From Methylobacter sp. (lineage in GTDB: Bacteria > Pseudomonadota > Gammaproteobacteria > Methylococcales > Methylomonadaceae): a stretch of 34,074 nt of DNA. The stretch is taken from assembly GCA_030655535.1 (NCBI GenBank), contig JAURVK010000144.1, positions 1 through 34,074 on the forward strand. Direction: 5' to 3'. The notes under the pieces are model-generated. The model did not search any database and had not been told where the DNA came from. It saw nothing but the letters and a program-made list of their open reading frames with translations. Of the stretch, positions 1,889-16,380 are shown in pieces. How positions within the stretch are numbered: position 1 is the first letter of the stretch; every line of letters starts with the position of its first letter. A program made the translations under genes and the position numbers.

Positions 1889-2611
1889 TCATTTTGTCAG
1901 CTTGAATTGCAAGGTTTGAACGGCTCTTTGGGTAACAGCGACACCATCAACTATTTTTCCCTTGAATTTCCACCGGCTAATAGCCTGTAGTGCGGCATCA
2001 TCAAAGACATCCACAGGTTGAGCCGCTACCACCACGGCATCTTCGACATCGCCGTCTGTGCTGATGGTAAATTCGACTTTAACCCAGCCCTCAATATGAC
2101 GGCTAGCCGCCCGCCTCGGATACTTGGGCGGAACCCGTTCCAGCGGAATAACACCGGTACTGACTCCAGCCGAAGCGGCGCCTTTACCGACATCGGCTTG
2201 TGCATTGCCGGTTTCTCCGATACTGCTGGGTGTACTGGCGGCAGGGACATTCACCGCCGGCCCGCTGGTTTTTACCGCTTGTACCGGTATATCCAGCCTG
2301 GGCACATCCATAGCAGGTATTTCCTGTTTTACCACGGGTGCCTTTTGGATTACCGGCTGCTTTTTGGGCGGCGCTTTCTGGCGTTGCAAAGGCTGCGGCT
2401 TATCCTGCACCTGCTCCACCTTTTTTTCGGGCGGTTTTTCGACTTTAGGCAAAGGCTGCGGCTCACGTTTTAAGCGCACAAACTCCATCATGTTCAGATG
2501 TTCGGTTTTCTTAACCACATGCCGGCTACTCATCAGCATGAATTGCATCAGCCAGAACAGGCCCAGCGAGACAATAACACCGGTCAATAAAGCGGCAACA
2601 GACGACTTCAC
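1889..2611 (-). CDS. tonB: TonB family energy transducer
   Basis: This is the periplasm-spanning protein that passes proton-motive energy from ExbB/ExbD to outer-membrane receptors. It has 240 residues. A single N-terminal membrane helix covers about residues 7-27. A Pro/Lys/Glu-rich spacer (EPQPLPKVEKPPEKK onward) runs to about residue 110. A TonB C-terminal domain covers about 155-240 with YPRRAASRHIEGWVKVEFTI and the ending FKLTK. The start is GTG, overlapping the exbD stop as GTGA, which indicates translational coupling. It is the last gene of the DUF3450-ttpC-exbB-exbD-tonB operon. Its likely client in this window is the copper receptor at 14125-16380. Confidence 0.93.
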   Translation of the reverse strand: MKSSVAALLTGVIVSLGLFWLMQFMLMSSRHVVKKTEHLNMMEFVRLKREPQPLPKVEKPPEKKVEQVQDKPQPLQRQKAPPKKQPVIQKAPVVKQEIPAMDVPRLDIPVQAVKTSGPAVNVPAASTPSSIGETGNAQADVGKGAASAGVSTGVIPLERVPPKYPRRAASRHIEGWVKVEFTISTDGDVEDAVVVAAQPVDVFDDAALQAISRWKFKGKIVDGVAVTQRAVQTLQFKLTK

Positions 2612-3021
2612 TGAGACTCCGCTTCGGTAGCAATAGAAGCGTTATTGATACCGGCCAGGCGAATCTGATCCATAACGCTGACCAGAACATGGGTTTTGGT
2701 CTCCCTGTCAGCGGTAATCACAACCGAACCTAGCGGATTTTCGGCATGCAACCTGGCGACATTCGCTCTAACCGCACGCATGTCGATGACCTTCTTATCT
2801 ATCCAGATTTCACCGCTGGGGCCAATCGCAACAATAATATGCGCCTGCTCCAGTTTCTCGGCGGTTTGAGCTTGAGGGCGATTAACATCGAGTCCCGATT
2901 CCTTGACCGAGGAGCTAGTCACTATAAAAAAAATCAACATAATAAAAACGATGTCGAGCATCGGTGTCATATCAAGTTCAGCATTTTTGTCAGCTGAGGC
3001 ACGGCTATTTTTGCGGCGCAT
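2608..3021 (-). CDS. exbD: ExbD biopolymer transport protein
   Basis: This is the small proton-channel partner of ExbB in the TonB motor. It has 137 residues. A basic cytoplasmic N-terminus is followed by one membrane helix (MTPMLDIVFIMLIFFIV, about 18-36) carrying the conserved protonatable Asp23. A periplasmic domain follows, with VVITADRETKTHVLVSVMDQ as in ExbD/TolR. AGGAG lies about 5 bases upstream of the ATG. It sits 8 bases after exbB and overlaps tonB by 4 bases. Confidence 0.94.
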   Translation of the reverse strand: MRRKNSRASADKNAELDMTPMLDIVFIMLIFFIVTSSSVKESGLDVNRPQAQTAEKLEQAHIIVAIGPSGEIWIDKKVIDMRAVRANVARLHAENPLGSVVITADRETKTHVLVSVMDQIRLAGINNASIATEAESQ

Positions 3022-3029
3022 GGATACTC

Positions 3030-3554
3030 CTAGTGATATTTTAATAAATCGGTCAGGCGATGTACTTCATCATCAACCAGTCCTTCAATACGCTTGCTGA
3101 AATAAAGCCCGCCTATCGCAATGATCATGCCCGCCATAGTCGGTATGGTGGCCTGGGATACGCCGGATGCCATGGCTCTGGCGTTGCTGGTGCCGGTCAC
3201 CGACATCACGTCAAAGACGCTAATCATCCCTGTTACCGTACCCAGCAAGCCCAACAACGGACACAAAACCACCAACATATCGATCACAGGAATGGTTCTG
3301 CTCATTTTAATTTTAGCCTCAGAAATAATACATTCCCTGATGGATAAGGCATGTGGCGTATGCCGGTCTTCCCGACTGTTCCACTGGTCTACCCAAAGAG
3401 CCTTGAGCCCGGGATAGGTCAGTCTGAAAAAAAAGAAGCGCTCAGCCACCAGCGTCCATAAACAGATGGAGGTCAGCAGAATCATCCATAGCACGTCGCC
3501 GCCGGTATTTAAAAAATCGCGGAGCGACTCCAGCAACGTTAACAACGCAGACAT
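3030..3554 (-). CDS. exbB: ExbB/TolQ/MotA-family proton channel protein
   Basis: This is an inner-membrane ExbB homologue of 174 residues, the short form without a large N-terminal extension. Membrane segments lie at about 20-38, 90-115 and 135-155. The family core is clear in the segment reading PLLGLLGTVTGMISVFDVM, followed by GVSQATIPTMAGMIIAIGGLYF. Its ATG overlaps the ttpC stop by one base, so the two are coupled. Having two ExbB-like proteins in one operon is typical of TtpC-type TonB systems as in Vibrio TonB2. Confidence 0.92.
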   Translation of the reverse strand: MSALLTLLESLRDFLNTGGDVLWMILLTSICLWTLVAERFFFFRLTYPGLKALWVDQWNSREDRHTPHALSIRECIISEAKIKMSRTIPVIDMLVVLCPLLGLLGTVTGMISVFDVMSVTGTSNARAMASGVSQATIPTMAGMIIAIGGLYFSKRIEGLVDDEVHRLTDLLKYH

Positions 3555-4882
3555 TACTTGCCTGCCCGGCGGCTGATTAAGCCGGCTGTCTGTTCATCAA
3601 GAATTTGCACCAATACCCGGCTGCGGGAAGCAACAATACTGTGCAGAAACAATAAGGGAATGGCGACAGACAAGCCCAATACCGTGGTAACCAGCGCCTG
3701 GGAAATGCCTTCAGCCATCAGTTTTGGATCCCCGGTGCCGAACAAACTGATCGATTGAAAAGTCACAATCATACCGGTCACGGTGCCAAGCAATCCCAGC
3801 AAGGGCGCTACGGCCGCGACCAGTTTAATAATCGACAAGCCTTTTTCCAGCGTGGGCAATTCGCGGATAATCGCTTCATCCAGTAATAATTCCAGATTAT
3901 CGGTATCTTCAGCGCTATCTTTCTCGGCAACGGCAAAAATACGCCCCAACGGATTATCATCGTTAGCAACAGAACTGTTCATTTGCAGCTCCATTTTTCG
4001 GCCGACTGCCGATAATTGAAACAATCTGAACACGCCGTAAATAAAACCGATCATCCCTAAGGTCATGGTCAGGTAACCAATCAGTCCGCCTTGCTGCACA
4101 CGCTCAATGAGGCCGGGCGTTTGAATCAGCATGCCGAGAATAGCGCCCCGGGTAGGATCAAGGGCAATATCGGCCTGCCCGGATTCTGTTTCAGCAATAT
4201 CTTCAGCCAAATCAAGAAACTTGCCTTCCGGTTGACGGGGGAGATCGGCCAGTTTTCCGGTTTCCGGCAAATAGCGCAAATATTTGCCATCGGCCAGCGC
4301 GTTAAAGACACCGACACGCACGACTTTTGCCTGGCGCGGTTCGCCCGCTGCCGACAGGATTTCACCGTCGTAATAAACCACTTTGCCGGACTCGGTCATT
4401 TCCTGTTGCAGGGTAAACCACAAATGCTCCAGCTGCGCCATCGACGGCAGGGCTTTGTTCTCGGCAATCGCAGATAATACGGCGGTTCTGCCTAGGAACT
4501 CGGCAGAAATAATGGAATTGTTCAGGTTGGCTTTTAAATCACCGGCGACTTGCCGAGCGACGCCGAACAGTTCGCCCAACGGCCCGCTACGCTCGGCCAG
4601 CTTGGCTTCCAGCTGGTTTAACTGTTCGGTGTTGGCCGTCAGTTGCGCCTTCAGTTGACTGCCGATGCTTTCCTGCTTGCCGAGTTCCGCCCGTGCAGCC
4701 GTTAACAGTTGTTGCTGTTTGCCGGGGTCGGCAACAAACTCGGCTTCCCGGGCGGCATTGACCTTGCCTTCCTCGCCTTGAGTTTGTTTAATTTCCTGTA
4801 ATAACTTATCCAGATCCAGGTGATCGGCAAAAGCCGTATTGCAAAGCAATAGCGTTAAAAAAATAAAGATCAGCTTGTTCAT
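3554..4882 (-). CDS. ttpC: TtpC-like ExbB fusion protein (accessory TonB motor subunit)
   Basis: This protein has 442 residues with a signal peptide at about 1-19. A long, largely helical periplasmic domain covers about 20-255 and contains a predicted coiled coil around KQQQLLTAARAELGKQES to LEAKLAER. The C-terminal half is ExbB/TolQ-like: membrane segments at about 265-288, 350-375 and 390-415, and the PLLGLLGTVTGMIVTFQSI signature. This architecture and the neighbours match TtpC, the third motor protein required by the TonB2 system of vibrios. By analogy, the periplasmic domain may help TonB reach receptors across a wide periplasm. The ATG overlaps the DUF3450 stop (ATGA). The family call is confident; the specific role is by analogy. 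Confidence 0.88.
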   Translation of the reverse strand: MNKLIFIFLTLLLCNTAFADHLDLDKLLQEIKQTQGEEGKVNAAREAEFVADPGKQQQLLTAARAELGKQESIGSQLKAQLTANTEQLNQLEAKLAERSGPLGELFGVARQVAGDLKANLNNSIISAEFLGRTAVLSAIAENKALPSMAQLEHLWFTLQQEMTESGKVVYYDGEILSAAGEPRQAKVVRVGVFNALADGKYLRYLPETGKLADLPRQPEGKFLDLAEDIAETESGQADIALDPTRGAILGMLIQTPGLIERVQQGGLIGYLTMTLGMIGFIYGVFRLFQLSAVGRKMELQMNSSVANDDNPLGRIFAVAEKDSAEDTDNLELLLDEAIIRELPTLEKGLSIIKLVAAVAPLLGLLGTVTGMIVTFQSISLFGTGDPKLMAEGISQALVTTVLGLSVAIPLLFLHSIVASRSRVLVQILDEQTAGLISRRAGK

Positions 4883-5607
4883 TTGGCGGCCTCAGGTGCA
4901 GAAACGGGAACGATCAACATGTCGGGCGCCGTTTCCTTGCGGGCAATACGCAAACCGTTACGAATCGAGTTGCTGTAACCGGAAGGTAATAGCTGCCAGC
5001 GTTTCTCCTCTTTATTCCAGAAACCGGTTTCACTGCCGTCCAGCCGTTGGTAATAAAGGGCCACACGACCCAGGCGTAAAAAATTAACCAAACTGGTCAC
5101 TCCGTTCAACTCGATATTCGCCTTATAGGCTTCAATCGTATTGCCGTATTCATTTTCAACCTGAAAGGCCTCCATGATCCGGCGAAATTTTTCGGCATTG
5201 CTGACATCGGCTTTGGCGACCAGTTCTTTTAATTGGCTCAAGCGCTGCTTGCGCTCTTCGGGCAAGAACGGCAAATCCAGCTGAATAAATTGATCCAGGC
5301 TATCGAGCATGTGTACGATCAGCGGTACGATTTCCTGCTTGGTGACTTCAATATCTTTCAGTTGTTTTTCCAGCGAGGCTTTTTCTTCAACCTGGGATGC
5401 CAGCATGTCTTTAATATGCTGATTATAGGTTTGCAAAATATCCGTTTGCCGGGTAACCGAGCGGTATTGTTCCAGCAGCGTATTTTTTTGATCGCTAGGC
5501 ACCACAGGTTGGACGGTTTTCGGGACAAGTTCGGCATATAAAGGCAACGCAAAAACACCTAAAAAAGCTGCGGCCAGACAGCTATTGTGTCGGCTAGAAT
5601 TAAACAT
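4879..5607 (-). CDS. DUF3450 periplasmic coiled-coil protein of the TonB operon
   Basis: This protein has 242 residues. A signal peptide covers about 1-25 (FLGVFALPLYA), followed by a helical, coiled-coil-like region at about 45-110. The more conserved C-terminal part contains FLRLGRVALYYQRLDGSETGFWN. That motif is characteristic of DUF3450, the first gene of TtpC-type TonB operons in many gammaproteobacteria. Its molecular role is not established; a periplasmic scaffold or regulator of the motor is possible. AGGA precedes the ATG by about 6 bases. Transcription of the operon probably starts in the 5608-6017 gap. Confidence 0.85.
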   Translation of the reverse strand: MFNSSRHNSCLAAAFLGVFALPLYAELVPKTVQPVVPSDQKNTLLEQYRSVTRQTDILQTYNQHIKDMLASQVEEKASLEKQLKDIEVTKQEIVPLIVHMLDSLDQFIQLDLPFLPEERKQRLSQLKELVAKADVSNAEKFRRIMEAFQVENEYGNTIEAYKANIELNGVTSLVNFLRLGRVALYYQRLDGSETGFWNKEEKRWQLLPSGYSNSIRNGLRIARKETAPDMLIVPVSAPEAAK

Positions 5608-6017: not shown

Positions 6018-6959
6018 CTATGTCGGAACCGATTCTGCCGTAGCGGGCTTCGGCGCCAACGAACCGCCGGTTTCGCCCTGTACATTAACCCATAAATGGG
6101 GTAAACCCAAGCTTCCCAACCAGGCAGAACCGCTATCCTCCTTGAGCATTGCGATGGTAGAAGCGCTGCCCGCGACTACACAGAAATCACCAACCACGCT
6201 AACCGCCGCCAGATGCCGCACCGGCCAACCGGTTTTGGGGTTGAGCACATGACCGTAACGCACACCCTCTACCAAAATGCAGCGTTCGTAATCGCCACTG
6301 CTGGCAAGCGCGCCTTCACGCAATAAAACGGTCTGCATCACGGCTTCTTTGTGACGGGGATCGCGGATACCGACTCGCCACGGACTGCCATCGGCACGAG
6401 GACCAATGACTTTTATGTCGCCGCCTAAATTAACGACGCCATGCCGGATTCCCGCTGCTCCACATAATGCGGCGGCACGGTCAACGGCGTATTCCTTGAC
6501 GATACCGCCGAAATCGATTTCCATGCCCGGGTTTGGAAATTCAAGTACCGGCGATGCCCAACGCAATTTATGCCAGCCGACTTTGTCGAGCAGTTCCTGA
6601 ACTTGCGCCTGATCCGGCAACCTGCCCAGATCAAAGCGCCAAGCGCGGCGCAAGATGCCGGAAGTGATGTCGAATAGGCCGTCGCTCTGTTTATAACAGG
6701 TTGCCGCATAATTCAATAACCCGGCGGTTTCATCATCGACCGCGATACGGCCGCCGGCGGCCGCCACGCGATTAATGGCCGAAAGGAAACTGTCGCTACG
6801 GTAACGCGAATACAGCGCTTCGAGTCGGCGTACATCCGCGATAGCCGCATCGGCAACCTGTTTGGCTCTGGCCGGGCTGTCGGCATAGAGTTGTATGTCG
6901 CAAGGCGAGCCCATCGCCTTGAAATCATAGCGGTAACAGCCCAAGCGCTTGGCTGTCAT
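6018..6959 (-). CDS. apbE: FAD:protein FMN transferase (ApbE family)
   Basis: ApbE enzymes attach FMN covalently to a Thr or Ser in a DxxSGAT-type motif of extracytoplasmic redox proteins, using FAD and Mg. Family motifs are present: FKAMGSPCDIQLYA near the start, DITSGILRRAW, EIDFGGIVKEYAVDRA, VVNLGGDIKVIG, SSGDYER and HVLNPKTGWPV. The call begins at MTAKRL, 313 residues. A longer frame reaches back to 7055 but would overlap the preceding gene; this start lies 31 bases after its stop. No signal peptide or lipobox is evident in this form, which is unusual because many ApbE proteins are exported lipoproteins. It is the last gene of the TlpA-DUF4266-DUF3570-ApbE cluster, so the DUF3570 protein is its obvious candidate substrate. 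Confidence 0.9.
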   Translation of the reverse strand: MTAKRLGCYRYDFKAMGSPCDIQLYADSPARAKQVADAAIADVRRLEALYSRYRSDSFLSAINRVAAAGGRIAVDDETAGLLNYAATCYKQSDGLFDITSGILRRAWRFDLGRLPDQAQVQELLDKVGWHKLRWASPVLEFPNPGMEIDFGGIVKEYAVDRAAALCGAAGIRHGVVNLGGDIKVIGPRADGSPWRVGIRDPRHKEAVMQTVLLREGALASSGDYERCILVEGVRYGHVLNPKTGWPVRHLAAVSVVGDFCVVAGSASTIAMLKEDSGSAWLGSLGLPHLWVNVQGETGGSLAPKPATAESVPT

Positions 6960-6990: not shown

Positions 6991-9765
6991 TCAAAACGCA
7001 TAACTCCAGGTAGCCGACAGTGCGCCCTCACGCGGTAGCTGATAGCCGTTGACATCGTCGCTGACCGGCTGTAGCCATTCGAAACTCAGGTTATTGCCCT
7101 GTAAGCTGCCGGTAGGCACAAAGGCGTTGATACCAAAACCGACATCCCAATAACGCCCACCATGATTGGCTGGATAATCCACCGGCCCCAGTTTATTGAA
7201 TGTCCCGTTGTACTCGTTCCTAATCGAACCTTGTACGGTATAAACGCCGCGCACCGACGTTGACAGCCAATTTAACAGGCTGTAGCTGCCCCAGGCGGTG
7301 GACTGAAACATATCGCCGAAGGCAAAACCGGTTTCGTTGTTATGCTCAAGACGTATCGTGCTGTTAAGCTGCGCACCCCAACCATACTTATCCAGTTTTC
7401 CGCTATAAGTGATGCTCGGTTTAAAATCCCAAGTGCCGCTGCCCAGCTGCATACCGTAATGCTGGAAACCGGCATCGATCCGATGGGTATCTCTGAACTT
7501 GACGCCAACATCGCCGGTCGGTGCGCTGACGCCCAGTGTGCCATGCAGATGATGACCGGCTTCATCGAACAGTTTAAACATCGCATAAACGCCGGTATCG
7601 CCGATACCGCTGGTGGTATGCTCGTGCAAGGTATGGTGATTGATCAGCGATTGCCGATTAAAAGTGGCCGATGGCGCCCCATTAAGTTCCCGCGTGGACA
7701 TATCCATATCGACGAACTGAGGCATCAGCATCAGCGTTAACCAGTCGGTCGGTGCGTACATAAGATCGAGCATGATCATATTCATGTTCATCCCGCCCGG
7801 CACGGTAAAGCAGCCGTCGTCGCCGCAGCCCTGTTGTACGATAGCTTGGTCGCTGACCTCATTGGTGCCATGCAGCATAGCGCCGGACTGGGTGCTGTTC
7901 ATATAACGGGCGCCGAACATCACGTCACCGGCCTTATCCATCATGTGATCGAACATGACACCGGCGGGCGCGTGGCCTCCGTGATGATTATGCCCAGCAT
8001 GACCGCTATGTTCGCTGCCGGCCAGAGAGAGTGCGGATAAATCGACCTTCAGAACCGCATTAACCGTGTAATAGTTGTAATCGGCATAAGCGCCCTCACC
8101 GCCGCCGCCCAGTTTCATCGAGCCTGCGTGGGTATAGTATTCGGCGCCCGCCTCAAAACTGACGCCTTTGGCAAATTGTTTGCTGACGGTAAGACCGCCG
8201 CTTAACGCACCGAATCCCGACAGCCGATGATCGCTGGAATAATGTCCAGGCAGTTTATTGCGGTCGAACGGAATGGCTTTATTGATCGGATTAACGGCAA
8301 TTTCATCGACAATTTTGCCGTCGGCATCCACCAGGTTAAAGTCTTTATCGCGGAAATAAACATTGCCATTATCGGGATTGTCCGCTTCAACATAAATAGG
8401 CCTTCCGCTTTGATCAACTGCGGTTTTACTGAAGGCTTGATTGGATGCCATGTAAGGCGTGTAAAAATCGGCGGCATCCTGGGAGTAATAACGCACTTTC
8501 GGAGTGATCGTCCAACCATGACCCAGCGGCTGAACCCAATCGGCTTCAAAGGTATGTGCATTGATGCCCCAGTCATCGTGAAAAAAGCGGTAATCAAAAT
8601 GCAAGGCCGCATCCAGGCCACCGATGTATTGAACGTAACGCAAATTTTCAGTCCATTGATTACGCTCGTTAGGACGCTTTTCAAGTAAGCCGATAGACAC
8701 GCCAGTCAGCACTTCGCCGGTCTGTGCCGGATCAATGAACGCCGCTTCCACCACCTTATAGGGATTTGCCATATAACCGGTACTGCGGGTATAGCCAATG
8801 CCCGCTTCCAGCAGCGCGGTTTCATTCAGCACCTGGGTCAGGCCCAGAGCGGTTCCCCAGTCCTGTCGATTGCCGCGCAGCACGTTATTCCTGCCCTCTT
8901 TTTGAATTCGGCCGCTACCGGAGGTGTTATTGTAAGACTCAGCACCACGGCCGACATCAAAAATATAGGGCGTAGCATCGTGGTCGAGTATGGCGCGGGT
9001 ATCGCTGTCGGTATAACTCAAGCCCAGATTCAAACTGGTCAGCTTCCGATTAAAATCCCAACGTCCGGCCAGATTGCCAAACCGCGATTCATAGTCGTTT
9101 TCCACTGAAATGCCGCCGCCGGCATCCAGCGTCGCCTCATCCCATTCGTAACTCAGTTTGAAATCGCCTTGTTTGCGAATCTCCGGCGAGGCGGAAGAAA
9201 GCGTATGCACTAGCTGGCTGTCTTTGATGTATTCCCCGGTTAAGGCGTCCTGTCTCAATGGGTTCAACTGCTTGTCAAACAGTACGCCATTGTTTTGTAA
9301 AAAAGGCGTTGCTCCTGAAATCACACCACCTTCTTTATTGCCGCCGAAAGAAAGCGGCGCGGTTGCGATGGGCGTCGCGCCGCTCCAGGTATCCTGGGTG
9401 TAATTAAAGGCAAACTTCAAACGGTCGGACAACTTGATTTTAGAACTGCCCAACAGACTGTCCACGACAATCGGGTCAAACCTGCTGTTTACGCCGAAAA
9501 GATTGCGGTTGCTCTCTTCATAATAGCCGTATAAAAAACTGACTTCTTCGTCTGCAGCCTGAGCCGTTGCGGGCATCAAGCCGGGCAACGACAAAGCAGC
9601 GGCGGTCAGTGCCTGCAATGACGCACTGACTGCTGTTGTCGGTTTCGGTTTGGTTATTGTGCGGGTTAATAAACGCTCGCTCAACTGCCTATAAGCCATT
9701 GTCAATAGCGAGTTGCCGGCGTTTTCGGCATGACGCTTGGTTAGTATGCGTTTAATAACAGCCAC
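6991..9765 (-). CDS. DUF3570 outer-membrane protein fused to a His/Met-rich second barrel
   Basis: This protein has 924 residues from a GTG start. The GTG has GGAGG about 8 bases upstream and overlaps the DUF4266 stop by 14 bases; a later ATG at 9699 is the alternative. A signal peptide with a long basic leader ends near residue 70 (ATAQA). Residues about 71-580 match DUF3570: alternating beta-strand pattern, YGYYEE near the start, and a DTWSGATPI motif at about 125-133. A His-rich linker (HSGHAGHNHHGGH, about 586-598) joins a second domain, about 600-924. That domain starts APAGVMFDHMM, contains GGMNMNMIMLDLMYAPTDWLTLM and GIGDTGVY, and ends in the aromatic YAF typical of outer-membrane barrels. 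The second half resembles the transporter/Phenol_MetA_deg-like barrels seen near copper genes. DUF3570 proteins are usually about 400 residues, so this is a fusion of two barrels. Confidence 0.8.
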   Translation of the reverse strand: MAVIKRILTKRHAENAGNSLLTMAYRQLSERLLTRTITKPKPTTAVSASLQALTAAALSLPGLMPATAQAADEEVSFLYGYYEESNRNLFGVNSRFDPIVVDSLLGSSKIKLSDRLKFAFNYTQDTWSGATPIATAPLSFGGNKEGGVISGATPFLQNNGVLFDKQLNPLRQDALTGEYIKDSQLVHTLSSASPEIRKQGDFKLSYEWDEATLDAGGGISVENDYESRFGNLAGRWDFNRKLTSLNLGLSYTDSDTRAILDHDATPYIFDVGRGAESYNNTSGSGRIQKEGRNNVLRGNRQDWGTALGLTQVLNETALLEAGIGYTRSTGYMANPYKVVEAAFIDPAQTGEVLTGVSIGLLEKRPNERNQWTENLRYVQYIGGLDAALHFDYRFFHDDWGINAHTFEADWVQPLGHGWTITPKVRYYSQDAADFYTPYMASNQAFSKTAVDQSGRPIYVEADNPDNGNVYFRDKDFNLVDADGKIVDEIAVNPINKAIPFDRNKLPGHYSSDHRLSGFGALSGGLTVSKQFAKGVSFEAGAEYYTHAGSMKLGGGGEGAYADYNYYTVNAVLKVDLSALSLAGSEHSGHAGHNHHGGHAPAGVMFDHMMDKAGDVMFGARYMNSTQSGAMLHGTNEVSDQAIVQQGCGDDGCFTVPGGMNMNMIMLDLMYAPTDWLTLMLMPQFVDMDMSTRELNGAPSATFNRQSLINHHTLHEHTTSGIGDTGVYAMFKLFDEAGHHLHGTLGVSAPTGDVGVKFRDTHRIDAGFQHYGMQLGSGTWDFKPSITYSGKLDKYGWGAQLNSTIRLEHNNETGFAFGDMFQSTAWGSYSLLNWLSTSVRGVYTVQGSIRNEYNGTFNKLGPVDYPANHGGRYWDVGFGINAFVPTGSLQGNNLSFEWLQPVSDDVNGYQLPREGALSATWSYAF

Positions 9766-9967
9766 AGCCGCCCCCTCCAGCGGCGCTGCTACCCGTAGCC
9801 GCCTCCCGGCTACCGTAAATATGCGCATTAAAGGTACTTTGTAGAGGGTAAGACTCCAAAGCCATCTGCGGCTTGGCAAGCGTGCCCCGCTGCCACGGCG
9901 CCACCGGGGAACAGCCCGAAACACAGATGCACAAGGCCAACAACAGCGCTTGCTGTATTGTCTTCAT
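9752..9967 (-). CDS. DUF4266 small lipoprotein
   Basis: This is a 71-residue lipoprotein with lipobox VSGC, Cys19 being the expected lipidation site. The short mature part carries the DUF4266 signature PVAPWQRGTLAKPQMA, and the C-terminus is Gly/Cys-rich (GGGGCGCY). Small DUF4266 lipoproteins typically sit directly before DUF3570 genes, as here, and the two reading frames overlap by 14 bases. The function is unknown; the CGC tail could bind a metal or form a disulfide. The paired Cys make it a candidate client of the TlpA-like protein encoded just upstream. GAGA precedes the ATG by about 8 bases. Confidence 0.88.
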   Translation of the reverse strand: MKTIQQALLLALCICVSGCSPVAPWQRGTLAKPQMALESYPLQSTFNAHIYGSREAATGSSAAGGGGCGCY

Positions 9968-10240: not shown

Positions 10241-10756
10241 TTATTTCGGTTCCGGCTTCTCTGCCAGCAACTGCCCGGCGACAAGCCGGAGTTCCTCGGC
10301 TGCTCCCTCGCGAAACCCCAAATGGATATGACGGATGACGCCATTACGATCAATCAAGTAAGACGAAGGCATGGCCTTGACGTCAAAGTCCCTGGCGCAC
10401 TTCTCGTTTTCATCCGCCGCCACGGTAAAATTGGCTGGATATTTGGCCAGAAACGTCTTGGCATCCTCATGGGTCTGATCCAGATTAATAGCTATAACTT
10501 GCAACCCACTATCCTTGAGGTCGCGATCCAGTTCGTTCATGAATGGAAAGGATTTAGCGCACGGGGGACACCAAGAGGACCAAAAATCCACATAAAGTAC
10601 TTTGCCGTGGAATTGTTGCAGGTTATAGCGTTGTTTATCGTTGATCGACGACAGCTCACAATCAGGCGCTTTGCTACCAACCTCTGCAGCAAATACCGTT
10701 GGTATTTGGGTAAGCGCCAGCATGGTACAGAGTAGTGTTAATATTCGCTGATTCAT
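10241..10756 (-). CDS. TlpA/ResA-like periplasmic thioredoxin
   Basis: This is a secreted thiol-disulfide oxidoreductase of 171 residues. A signal peptide ends near residue 23 (PTVFA). The redox motif is WCPPC at 62-66, followed by KSFPFMNEL, with the cis-proline segment AMPSSYLID around 125-133. DFWSSWCPPC is typical of TlpA/ResA reductants. It heads the cluster TlpA-DUF4266-DUF3570-ApbE on the minus strand, separated from the next gene by a palindromic element. A likely role is to keep cysteines of the DUF4266 or DUF3570 partners, or a periplasmic metal site, reduced. The upstream ribosome site is weak. Confidence 0.9.
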   Translation of the reverse strand: MNQRILTLLCTMLALTQIPTVFAAEVGSKAPDCELSSINDKQRYNLQQFHGKVLYVDFWSSWCPPCAKSFPFMNELDRDLKDSGLQVIAINLDQTHEDAKTFLAKYPANFTVAADENEKCARDFDVKAMPSSYLIDRNGVIRHIHLGFREGAAEELRLVAGQLLAEKPEPK

Positions 10757-11502: not shown

Positions 11503-12366
11503 TTACTGAAAACCATTCGGTTTCGAGAGCGACTTCAGTCTTATTGCAGCCAACTCCCGCACCGATTTTGCGTCGTCAATCAGTGCTTGTTGGAGCAACG
11601 CGATATCGTCTCCCGCTCGGTCAACGGCGGTTAGTCGCACCGATACATCACTGTCATGCAATGCCTCTCGCAGGACAGCGGCGGCCCCGGTCCCTTCTCG
11701 ATGCGCCAAACTGAAAATGGCCTGCACTCTTACTCTCGCATCTTGATCTGATAGCGCAGTTTCCAGCGTCTCTCTGACGGTTACATCACCCTTTCGTCCT
11801 GCCGCCATCAGGCGCCCGATAGCCTCTGCACGCTCCACAGGATTTTCCGACTTTGCCATTTTCACCAAATCATTAGCTTCGTCAGCTTCCGGCTCGTTTT
11901 TTGTGTTTGCCGCTATCGGCAATGTTTGTCGCTGAATGCCAGCCGATAAGCACATAACGGAATTGGTCTGATCCGCTCCAAATTTTGCTCCAAGTACCCA
12001 AGCTTCCACAACCTGCCCGCGAGGGTCAACCGTCGAAGGCTGTCGTGAGTATCGAAAAACAAGATCTGCCTTACGAGCTAGCAGGCACTCCATGATCTGC
12101 TTTACTGTCGACCCTACACAAGTCGCTGTTACCAACCCGTCAGGCAGAACCGAATAGTTTATCCGCACACCTGTTCTGCTCGCAATGCTGTCGAGCACCC
12201 GCGCCAACGGCGCTTGCCTCGCCTCCAGTTGTAGCTCAGCCCCCACATCTTCAGCCATGACCAGCCGGACGTTTTGCTCGCCCGGATGACTGACATCCAT
12301 AACAGCTAACAGCGTCTCGGGCATCAACAGGAGCAAACAGGTCATCCAGAATTTGATTACAATCAT
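11503..12366 (-). CDS. Secreted STN-domain plus HEAT-repeat protein
   Basis: This protein has 287 residues. A hydrophobic N-terminus (IVIKFWMTCLLLLMPETLLAV) acts as signal peptide. Residues about 40-100 resemble the STN domain (Secretin and TonB N-terminus short domain): LEARQAPLARVLDSIASRTG, INYSVLPDGLVTATC, then MECLLARKADLVFRY. A linker follows, then HEAT-like repeats at about 175-285, including AEAIGRLMAAG, DARVRVQAIFSLA and VSVRLTAVDRAGDD. The STN domain is normally found at the start of secretins and signal-transducing TonB receptors, so its combination with HEAT repeats suggests a periplasmic docking protein. The start at 12366 has a G-rich ribosome site; an upstream in-frame ATG exists at 12429. 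The domain calls are by eye. Confidence 0.7.
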   Translation of the reverse strand: MIVIKFWMTCLLLLMPETLLAVMDVSHPGEQNVRLVMAEDVGAELQLEARQAPLARVLDSIASRTGVRINYSVLPDGLVTATCVGSTVKQIMECLLARKADLVFRYSRQPSTVDPRGQVVEAWVLGAKFGADQTNSVMCLSAGIQRQTLPIAANTKNEPEADEANDLVKMAKSENPVERAEAIGRLMAAGRKGDVTVRETLETALSDQDARVRVQAIFSLAHREGTGAAAVLREALHDSDVSVRLTAVDRAGDDIALLQQALIDDAKSVRELAAIRLKSLSKPNGFQ

Positions 12367-12449
12367 GACAGCCCCCGAAACATACGGCATCTCCACGGCG
12401 GCATATTCCCGCGGATAAATAAAAAGCATACCCCCCCGGCTTTAATAAC

Positions 12450-14124: not shown

Positions 14125-16380
14125 CTAGTAATTTACCGTCATACCGACATTGAACGAGCGGCCCATGCCGGGCACCGCTATTCCAGGTTTGCTCACTTCT
14201 CCTATATAAGCGCCGCCTAAAGGCAGTGCGTAATTCTTATCGAGAATATTGTCTATGCCGCCATCGACCCGTAAATATTTCCAGGTATAACTGCTGCGCA
14301 GGTTGAGCAATGCGTAACCTGCGGTTTTAGGCTCTAAACGAATGTCTTGCACATCTGTTTTAGGCGCGACTATTTGCGTTTCGATAGCATTGGCCCAGCT
14401 ACCGCGTTGGTGCTCAAGCGCCACCGCGGCATTGAACGGCATCTGTTGGTACAGGTTGTCGCCGGTGTCGTTGTTCTGCCCTCTGACATAATTTAAAACG
14501 GTTTTGCCGGTAAGGCTACCGTATTTAGCAGTATCCAATAACAGCTTAGACCCGGACACATCGACGCCGAATAGATGCGCATCGAAGTTAGCCAGTTGCA
14601 GCAACCTAAAGCCGCCGCCGCCATGCATTGTAGTGCGACCTGGCGCTGAGTTGGCGCAGGTCACACCATTACCCGGCTGACAGAGTCTCGCATCAATATA
14701 GTTTTCAACGTGAGTGTAAAAGGGCGTGATTTTAGCTTCCCAGTCTTGCTGATCGGCGTCATGCCAGTTGACCGTACCGCTGACGGTGTGCGCGACTTCC
14801 GGCTTAAGGTTAATATCGCCGACATAGCCATTACCGTCGCCGACCCAGTTATTCATCAACATAGCCATAGGCATGGTGTTCGTGCCCATAACCCGTCCGC
14901 GAGACCAGGCAAAGCGCTCGTAAAGGTTGGGCGAACGGGTTTTTCTGGATGCCCCCAGTTCATAAGTCTGCCTATCATTCGGGGTGTAACGGGTTAACGC
15001 GGTCCAGTCGATATTAATGTCGGTTTGTTTTTTATTTTGACTATTAACAATCCGCGCTTCCGGTGTGATCACGCCATAATCCATCACCTCACCGGCATTC
15101 ATTTCCACAGCGCCGACACGGGCACCCAGTTGAGTTAGCCATTGCCGATTCCAGCGACCTTCCCACTCGGCAAAAAGATCAATGCGATCGCGCTTGCCTT
15201 GATTGATATTCTGAAATGCTCCCGGCCCTTGCATCATAAGCATTGGGTTGGTGCCGATCGGATCCCACCAGTCGTCTAAACGGTAACGCTGATACTCGCT
15301 GCCCACGGTAAGCAAGTGCTTGTCGCTTATATCGATATTGGCTTTTACCGATAAGCCCTGATTAATGCCATGGGTATCCATCGGCATGGTACGGGTTGGC
15401 GTAGTCATTTTATCCCTTAGGAAGTTCATCTTGTGCTGAGCATCCTCGTGATAGGCGCGGGCTTCCAGATTACCCCAATCAAACCGGCTCCTGGTGAAGA
15501 CATTGGCGAACCAGCTGTCGTCTCCGGTCATGTCCATACGCACATTGGGAAAGCCTTGATAAGGGATATTTTGCTGGCCGACTTTGATCACGGCCAGATG
15601 ATCGTCGTTGCGCAAAGCCAGCGACAGCGATTGGTTCTCCGATTTGTAGGCCGAAGAACCCACGACATCATTGCCGTTTATTTTATTTTTAGTAGTGAAA
15701 TTACCGCCAGCCTTGTAATTGCGCGACTCTACCGTTGAGCCGGTGTACTTGATCTCGGCATGTTCGTTGGCTATCGAGGCGGCAATATTGCCTCCTTGTG
15801 CATCGCCGTTGCTGCGATAAAAGACTGAACCTTGGCCTTTAATCAATGGCGCTTCGCCATCTTCGGCAAATTCGGGATCGGCCGAATTAACGCGAATAGT
15901 GCCGCCGATACTGTCGCCGCCCATACTGACCGGCGTGATTCCGGCAAGCACTTGGGCGCTCAACACACTGGAAGGAGAAACATAAGATAGCGCCGGGTTC
16001 ATGTGATTGGCGCAAGCCGAAATCAAATTCATGCCATCGACTTGAGTGCGTATGCGGTCATCCGCCATGCCGTGAATAATGGGGCGACTGGAAATGCCGC
16101 CGCCGCCGGAAAAGCTTACGCCGGGCATACCTTTAAACATTTGCGCGGTATCGCTGGTAGCGGTTCTGGACAGGGCTATTTTGGAAGGGTCGAGAAAGGC
16201 GCCGAACGGCTGATCGATATTGGATGATTGGGCTTTAATAGTCAGCATGTCCAAAACCAGCGGCTCCTCGGTCTTTTTCATAGCCTCTTTTTTCTGAATC
16301 GATTTGTCGGTCGTTACCGGCTCGGCGGCAATTCCGTTCCCTAAATAACTTATTCCCAATAATAGTGCGTATTTTTTCAT
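14125..16380 (-). CDS. oprC: TonB-dependent copper receptor (OprC/NosA type)
   Basis: This is an outer-membrane TonB-dependent receptor of 751 residues. The signal peptide covers about 1-19. A TonB-box-like segment LDMLTIKAQ lies at about 43-51. The plug domain covers about 70-180 (GMPGVSFSGGGGISSRPIIHG, then ISACANHMNPALSYVSP). The barrel follows and ends NVGMTVNY. The SACxNHMNPxLSY segment is diagnostic of the copper receptor family. Cys123 and Met127 (CxxxM) and His316-Lys-Met318 (HxM) match, in spacing and position, the copper ligands known from Pseudomonas OprC. It should import copper using the TtpC-type TonB system encoded at 1889-5607. The promoter at 16529-16557 is shared with the YcnI-like gene. 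Confidence 0.92.
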   Translation of the reverse strand: MKKYALLLGISYLGNGIAAEPVTTDKSIQKKEAMKKTEEPLVLDMLTIKAQSSNIDQPFGAFLDPSKIALSRTATSDTAQMFKGMPGVSFSGGGGISSRPIIHGMADDRIRTQVDGMNLISACANHMNPALSYVSPSSVLSAQVLAGITPVSMGGDSIGGTIRVNSADPEFAEDGEAPLIKGQGSVFYRSNGDAQGGNIAASIANEHAEIKYTGSTVESRNYKAGGNFTTKNKINGNDVVGSSAYKSENQSLSLALRNDDHLAVIKVGQQNIPYQGFPNVRMDMTGDDSWFANVFTRSRFDWGNLEARAYHEDAQHKMNFLRDKMTTPTRTMPMDTHGINQGLSVKANIDISDKHLLTVGSEYQRYRLDDWWDPIGTNPMLMMQGPGAFQNINQGKRDRIDLFAEWEGRWNRQWLTQLGARVGAVEMNAGEVMDYGVITPEARIVNSQNKKQTDINIDWTALTRYTPNDRQTYELGASRKTRSPNLYERFAWSRGRVMGTNTMPMAMLMNNWVGDGNGYVGDINLKPEVAHTVSGTVNWHDADQQDWEAKITPFYTHVENYIDARLCQPGNGVTCANSAPGRTTMHGGGGFRLLQLANFDAHLFGVDVSGSKLLLDTAKYGSLTGKTVLNYVRGQNNDTGDNLYQQMPFNAAVALEHQRGSWANAIETQIVAPKTDVQDIRLEPKTAGYALLNLRSSYTWKYLRVDGGIDNILDKNYALPLGGAYIGEVSKPGIAVPGMGRSFNVGMTVNY

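Follow-up and report, generated by a model that had tools for sequence, protein, structure and literature searches.

The window analysed here, a 34,074-nucleotide stretch of a Methylobacter genome, carries on its reverse strand a gene (6991..9699, −) that fuses a DUF3570 domain to a part resembling COG4313-type channels. Translation from the ATG at 9699, adopted here as the start and as the origin of residue numbering, yields 902 amino acids with a Sec-type signal recognizable by eye; a start at the GTG at 9765 would yield 924, and the frame is open from the GTG at 9924. Residues 29-544 match DUF3570 (PF12094) in Pfam at 402 bits (cut-off 25; E 3.5e-120). Within this domain, the sequence DTWSGAT (site 1; 9373..9393, −; residues 103-109) contains a predicted FMN acceptor, T109 (codon 9375-9373), and a second SGAT (site 2; 9307..9318, −; residues 128-131) contains a possible second acceptor, T131. 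A first-pass annotation of this DNA had reported both sequences, the former at residues 125-131, a numbering that fits the GTG 9765 start, and the latter as lacking the Asp; both observations were confirmed, as was its placement of apbE 31 bases downstream, with the DUF3570 stop codon ending at 6991 and the apbE ATG lying at 6959.

The adjacent apbE gene (6018..6959, −) encodes an FAD:protein FMN transferase (PF02424, 255 bits against a cut-off of 25.6; E 1.2e-75) that matches ApbE structures in the PDB (best 1vrm, 2.6e-40) and, by the leader rule and tree described below, has no leader. On the other side of the fusion gene, and on the same strand, lie genes for a small DUF4266 protein (9752..9967, −; Pfam E 4.5e-21) with a lipobox-like SGC, assigned by eye, and a C-terminal CGCY; a periplasmic thioredoxin/redoxin-like protein with a WCPPC motif (10241..10756, −); a small secreted protein, P149 (10840..11289, −), with a mature N-terminal His assigned by eye; a HEAT-repeat protein that is a recurrent neighbour (11503..12429, −); and P284 (12859..13713, −), which has a YcnI-like predicted fold and a mature N-terminal His. 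Thioredoxin-like and DUF4266 genes accompany DUF3570 as in the DsbD/DUF3570 system; DsbD itself is absent from the cluster, the DsbD_TM matches of this genome being on other contigs (C13 and C179; the window is C49). Neighbours were counted with phmmer, using the window proteins, on the same strand and within 3 kb at the 45 loci whose flanks extend 3 kb or more upstream and 2.5 kb or more downstream: DUF4266 was found at 43, thioredoxin at 37, P149 at 34, ApbE at 33, P284 and the HEAT protein at 23 each, and a TonB-dependent receptor at 3. In the window, a receptor of this kind is encoded at 14125-16380 (−), with best NCBIfam matches to haem/transferrin-type (E 2.3e-33) and TonB-copper (E 1e-27) models that are both below the cut-offs, and genes for a DUF3450 protein and an energising set of the TonB/ExbD/ExbB type follow downstream of apbE (1889-5607, −; two of the proteins assigned by Pfam, the rest by eye). 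Another genome of the same genus (G313, contig C12, 13176-16728) presents an unfused DUF3570 gene, apbE and a DsbD_TM match in a row.

To describe the conservation of the two sites, we combined 79 loci from a contig scan with loci from further genome searches into an alignment of 126 rows, 106 of the fused type and 20 unfused; a second alignment of 70 rows comprised the window and 69 rows hand-picked from the 79 loci, leaving out near-duplicate, truncated, frameshifted or simply not-taken rows. Methanotrophs (Methylobacter, Methylomonas, Methylovulum, Crenothrix and others) predominate among the named hosts of the 79 loci, three loci (L110, L113 and L137) are labelled Nitrosomonas, and several further hosts are classed only as proteobacteria. 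Across all 106 fused-type rows of the larger alignment, site 1 reads D.W[SGA]GAT in each of the 103 that are readable there, three being truncated or frameshifted, with Ser (83), Gly (18) or Ala (2) at the fourth residue. Site 2 reads GA[ST] in 102 of 105 readable rows (exceptions ASAS, GAAS and SNAS), and D103, W105, G107, A108 and T109 are kept in 70/70 rows of the smaller alignment. These alignments show retention of the GA and the final hydroxyl residue rather than of SGAT as a whole. In site 1 the G, A and final T are invariant and the first Ser varies; site 2, in spite of its missing Asp, is conserved almost as well as site 1. In 5000 shuffles of the window protein, one [ST]GA[ST] arose in 15.7%, two in 1.4% and D..[ST]GA[ST] in 1.0%. 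The motif by itself is only mildly improbable by chance, so that the case rests on conservation, which across the fused-type rows rules out a chance motif.

The proposal that the motif tracks with ApbE held for one class of proteins. Among the 20 unfused DUF3570 rows, GA[ST] occurs in 14/14 beside a leaderless ApbE versus 3/6 without one (Fisher P = 0.018), in a test that counted D..xGA[ST] as GA[ST] within the first 200 residues and that comprises few rows, several of them from one genus. Fused rows, on the other hand, keep the GAT of site 1 regardless of an adjacent ApbE, which is absent within 3 kb on the same strand at 12 of the 45 fused loci with enough flank. The first-pass annotation had also pointed to surveys linking ApbE to DUF3570, and this link is in print: Meheust et al. 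2021 described two conserved [S/T]GA[S/T] motifs in ApbE-associated DUF3570 proteins and showed that the C. luteolum protein is flavinylated by its cognate ApbE in E. coli, a modification whose abolition needed replacement of the serines of both motifs (PMC8238504). The central idea of the first-pass annotation is therefore right, and the status of DUF3570 as an ApbE substrate is not new. With a [ST]GA[ST] motif and an ApbE in its own gene cluster, the fusion protein very probably carries a covalent flavin, and the suggestion of an ApbE-flavinylated outer-membrane protein is supported by the published precedent (PMC8238504), by site conservation and by the predicted barrels.

An AlphaFold2 model built from the 70 rows (mean pLDDT 82.3, pTM 0.75) predicts two regions of strands throughout, from about residue 50 to 555 and from 593 to 902, and has low confidence in a linker at residues 559-574. 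The first region (barrel 1, the DUF3570 part; 8035..9552, −) has 16 strands; short turns join them on one side and long loops on the opposite one, and both flavin motifs are at the second long loop, all of this read from the secondary-structure string and not from coordinates. Provided that the chain ends lie in the periplasm, that loop would be outside or folded into the mouth of the barrel. Barrel 1 aligns with numerous barrels, the best being a BamA model (Z 21.3), and phmmer searches at E up to 1 found no solved DUF3570 structure. A His-rich linker (residues 556-592; 7924..8034, −) leads to barrel 2 (residues 593-902; 6994..7923, −), whose predicted model matches the COG4313 channel 4rl8 (Z 23.5) and FapF 5o65 (Z 23.0). 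The Foldseek fold lists show only ranked matches, and absence from them is uninformative. An outer-membrane location fits these predicted barrels, and the fusion of DUF3570 to a COG4313-type channel, a predicted double barrel, goes beyond the published family. Conservation marks a Cys pair (C625/C630) and a Met series (M637-M667) in barrel 2 (7699..7827, −): M594, M641, M643, M647, M657, M659, M665, M667, M750, C625, C630 and H585 are kept in 70/70 rows, and Met columns at 97% or above number 11 in barrel 2 versus none in residues 50-555. Along two predicted strands, these Mets alternate with Leu-rich positions, from which we infer that they face the lumen.

The distribution of the fused form was examined in genome searches. 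DUF3570 occurs in 20 of 299 genomes sampled from the phylum, with frames of more than 900 residues only in two (G000 and G102) and all others below 500; within the order, fused frames are common and unfused ones also present among the matches listed. No Pfam match at E 0.01 was obtained for the C-terminal part of the fusion, P149 or P284, and no NCBIfam match for these or for the whole fusion protein. Two loci contain four (L115, 1301-14740) and three (L091, 3-8754) tandem fused DUF3570 frames with no apbE found in the locus, and two genomes (G394 and G400) have 8 DUF3570 matches each among the matches listed. Eight plasmid records hold relatives of barrel 2. Of the four neighbourhoods examined, the first includes cytochrome-biogenesis genes together with a gene for a multicopper-oxidase domain, the second cytochrome-biogenesis and DsbD-domain genes, and the third is uninformative; the fourth relative, on a Methylosinus plasmid, adjoins feoB. 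This last gene (L144, 5576-7792) encodes a single protein in which a different barrel (OMP_b-brl) is joined through a His-rich stretch to a Met-rich part resembling barrel 2, and a PepSY gene accompanies feoB next to it.

Two of the neighbouring proteins carry highly conserved His and Cys residues. Across 38 rows, P149 keeps C51 and C130 without exception, H129 and H138 in 36 and H28 in 35. In P284, H36, H58, C60 and W202 are present in 29/29 rows, and H36 directly follows the likely cleavage site (by eye), giving the protein a mature N-terminal His and a conserved Trp. The P284 model (pLDDT 82.6) aligns with YcnI structures from the N-terminal His onward (Z 11.2 to 10.6, 5-6% identity), with weak Foldseek E-values (best 2.9e-3, none at or below 0.001); the uncharacterised Ig-like 3esm follows at Z 10.0, and the remaining matches, including cohesin rows (Z 6.1), reach at most 6.1. 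P284 has no DUF1775 match (0 Pfam families at E 0.01), and we therefore consider it YcnI-like in fold and do not file it as a member. YcnI binds Cu(II) via His27 and Glu50, with Trp137 near by (PMC8424229), and the predicted fold of P284, together with its invariant mature N-terminal His, hints at copper.

Matches to AMO/pMMO were found in 6 of 9 genomes with the fused form (three copies in G102; none in G371, G401 and G403, which are fragmented) and in 0/18 DUF3570 genomes outside the order. Of 5 genomes with unfused DUF3570 from a single Methylococcales genus, 4 matched as well, so that the monooxygenase does not separate fused from unfused forms inside the order. Methane and ammonia monooxygenases need copper. 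As the metal handled by this system, copper can be put forward only tentatively, and a flavinylated outer-membrane reductase acting on iron, or in thiol/redox balance, is a credible competitor that stops somewhat short of being probable. The Methylosinus protein with its barrel-2-like part beside feoB and a PepSY gene points to iron, and 25 DUF3570-system clusters have been tied to a VIT1 iron transporter (PMC8238504); against iron stand the YcnI-like neighbour P284 with its N-terminal His, the Met-rich barrel and the occurrence of fused forms in methane and ammonia oxidisers.

The absence of a leader from the window ApbE was assessed with a home-made rule, distinct from SignalP, that requires a start codon 20 or more residues ahead of the core and, after it, nine residues that include none of D, E, K, R, H, N and Q and have a mean hydropathy of at least 1.6. 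No leader was called from the start at 6959 or from the alternative in-frame ATGs at 7055 and 7001; in a close relative (L061) no more than 25 residues of open frame precede the core, an argument for 6959. We then compared the ApbEs encoded at DUF3570 loci with ApbEs found by searching 1, 19 and 30 whole genomes, using 158 rows for leader counts and 155 unique cores of at least 230 residues for a FastTree phylogeny. Leaders were called in 5 of the 88 rows within 3 kb of DUF3570 and in 58 of the 70 others, and the stretch from an in-frame stop codon to the core spans at most 30 residues in 55/88 of the DUF3570-adjacent rows. On the tree, a split with support of 0.99, chosen after the fact as the best separator of linked and unlinked sequences, places all 85 DUF3570-linked ApbEs and 10 unlinked ones on one side; leaders were called in 5/95 on this side versus 57/60 on the other. 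The four calls among linked ApbEs stem from long frames whose hydrophobic stretch lies well ahead of the conserved start; 3 of the 10 unlinked ApbEs lie 3.9 to 4.8 kb from DUF3570, and, of three rows without a leader call on the other side, L164 and L200 appear leader-like by eye and L161 does not. These comparisons tie a leaderless ApbE clade strongly to a putatively exported substrate. In a Bacteroidota stretch with no DUF3570, ApbE adjoins DUF2271 and PepSY genes, and one genome (G015; L245, 3822-16665) presents a different DUF3570 neighbourhood, with an exported ApbE-like gene about 10.8 kb away. A 2025 review ties leaderless ApbE to the soluble fumarate reductase of Klebsiella or to eukaryotic fusions with it (PMC12052999).

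The lack of a leader in the partner enzyme makes the cytosol the probable place of FMN attachment, ahead of export. The window genome (87.8% complete) cannot decide this timing, because it also encodes a second ApbE of the exported lipoprotein type, with a lipobox-type leader (contig C39; L140, 1348-2424, +). G102, a single contig rated 100% complete, has one ApbE, located beside the fused gene; its ATG is preceded, at a distance of 14 codons, by an in-frame stop, and the interval holds no ATG, GTG or TTG. Likewise, in G231 (about 20 contigs) the only ApbE is leaderless and lies beside an unfused DUF3570 gene. Neither genome has a match to FMN_bind, NQR2_RnfD_RnfE or DUF2271, leaving its leaderless ApbE, as far as sequence searches go, without another substrate from these three families. 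These two genomes, and a leaderless clade that follows DUF3570, argue against flavinylation in the periplasm before insertion, whether carried out by an exported ApbE from another locus or by the neighbouring enzyme after export via an unrecognised route. We consider such periplasmic addition unlikely, even with lipobox-type ApbEs in the window genome and in most genomes searched, and with five unfused loci (L018-L022) that have no neighbouring leaderless ApbE, four of whose genomes encode an ApbE 6 to 12 kb away and two of which (L018 and L022) keep SGAS. It is very improbable that the leaderless ApbE modifies an unrecognised cytosolic protein and that DUF3570 lacks flavin in this organism, its motif being structural: the first Ser does drift to Gly or Ala in 20/103 rows and known leaderless ApbEs do serve soluble fumarate reductase (PMC12052999), but the acceptor T and the preceding GA never vary in 103 rows, and a family member is flavinylated at these very motifs (PMC8238504).

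Taken together, the locus suggests that the fusion gene encodes a Sec-exported outer-membrane protein of two β-barrels, whose DUF3570 barrel would bear FMN covalently on T109, and probably on T131, attached by the neighbouring ApbE. The leaderless enzyme would most likely add FMN in the cytosol to the unfolded precursor, which would then pass SecYEG with its FMN and be inserted into the outer membrane; both FMN sites would then sit within barrel 1 in its second long loop, read here as facing outward or lying in the barrel mouth. To our knowledge, no native FMN-bearing preprotein passing Sec has been described. A SecYEG lumen of up to 2.4 nm with bulky substrates, cited in a review (PMC6028853), would make passage of FMN possible, and the flavinylation of signal-truncated C. 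luteolum constructs, whose DUF3570 protein was recovered from the insoluble pellet, indicates that modification in the cytosol can happen (PMC8238504). The periplasmic thioredoxin might supply electrons that the DUF4266 CxC protein relays to the flavins, with a metal, perhaps Cu(II), as the final recipient and the Met- and Cys-rich barrel 2 as the part that handles it; we give this route an even chance, and could argue equally for or against reduction of a metal by the system. The genes, motifs, conservation and missing leader come from sequence and the folds are predicted, with flavin, timing and copper deduced from them; the whole explanation, a cytosol-flavinylated double barrel with an electron relay to a metal, is on balance slightly favoured. 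Its most specific form is doubtful: a reductive copper-uptake machine of methane and ammonia oxidisers in which Cu(II) would be reduced at the outer membrane by the cytosol-flavinylated double barrel with electrons from the thioredoxin relay, a methionine ladder in barrel 2 would pass Cu(I), and the YcnI-like P284 and P149 would be copper-binding partners. If the copper reading is true, the system is a candidate route for supplying copper to the monooxygenases of these organisms. If the leaderless ApbE serves the exported barrel, attachment of a bulky cofactor precedes translocation by Sec, and no FAD would have to leave the cytosol for it.

Among known systems, the DsbD-type DUF3570 system shares the same four families (DUF3570, ApbE, thioredoxin-like and DUF4266), two [ST]GA[ST] motifs and an ApbE neighbour with the window (PMC8238504). 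Its DUF3570 is a domain of about 420 residues, whereas that of the window is fused to a second barrel; the window has no DsbD, and 316 clusters without DsbD are also counted in that report, the available part of which does not mention a leaderless ApbE. The Klebsiella pneumoniae ApbE likewise has no signal peptide, but its target, fumarate reductase, stays cytosolic, whereas the proposed target in the window goes to the outer membrane (PMC12052999). The COG4313 channel 4rl8 shares the fold of barrel 2 (Z 23.5 over 252 aligned residues, 18% identity), which in the window protein is C-terminal to a DUF3570 barrel and carries conserved Met and Cys residues. With YcnI/DUF1775, P284 shares the predicted fold, an alignment starting at the mature N-terminal His and an invariant Trp, at 5-6% identity and with H58 located 22 residues after its first His, where YcnI has Glu50 at 23 (PMC8424229). 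Beyond these published systems, the present analysis adds a predicted fused double barrel, a leaderless ApbE clade with a putatively exported substrate and, by inference, a lead towards copper.
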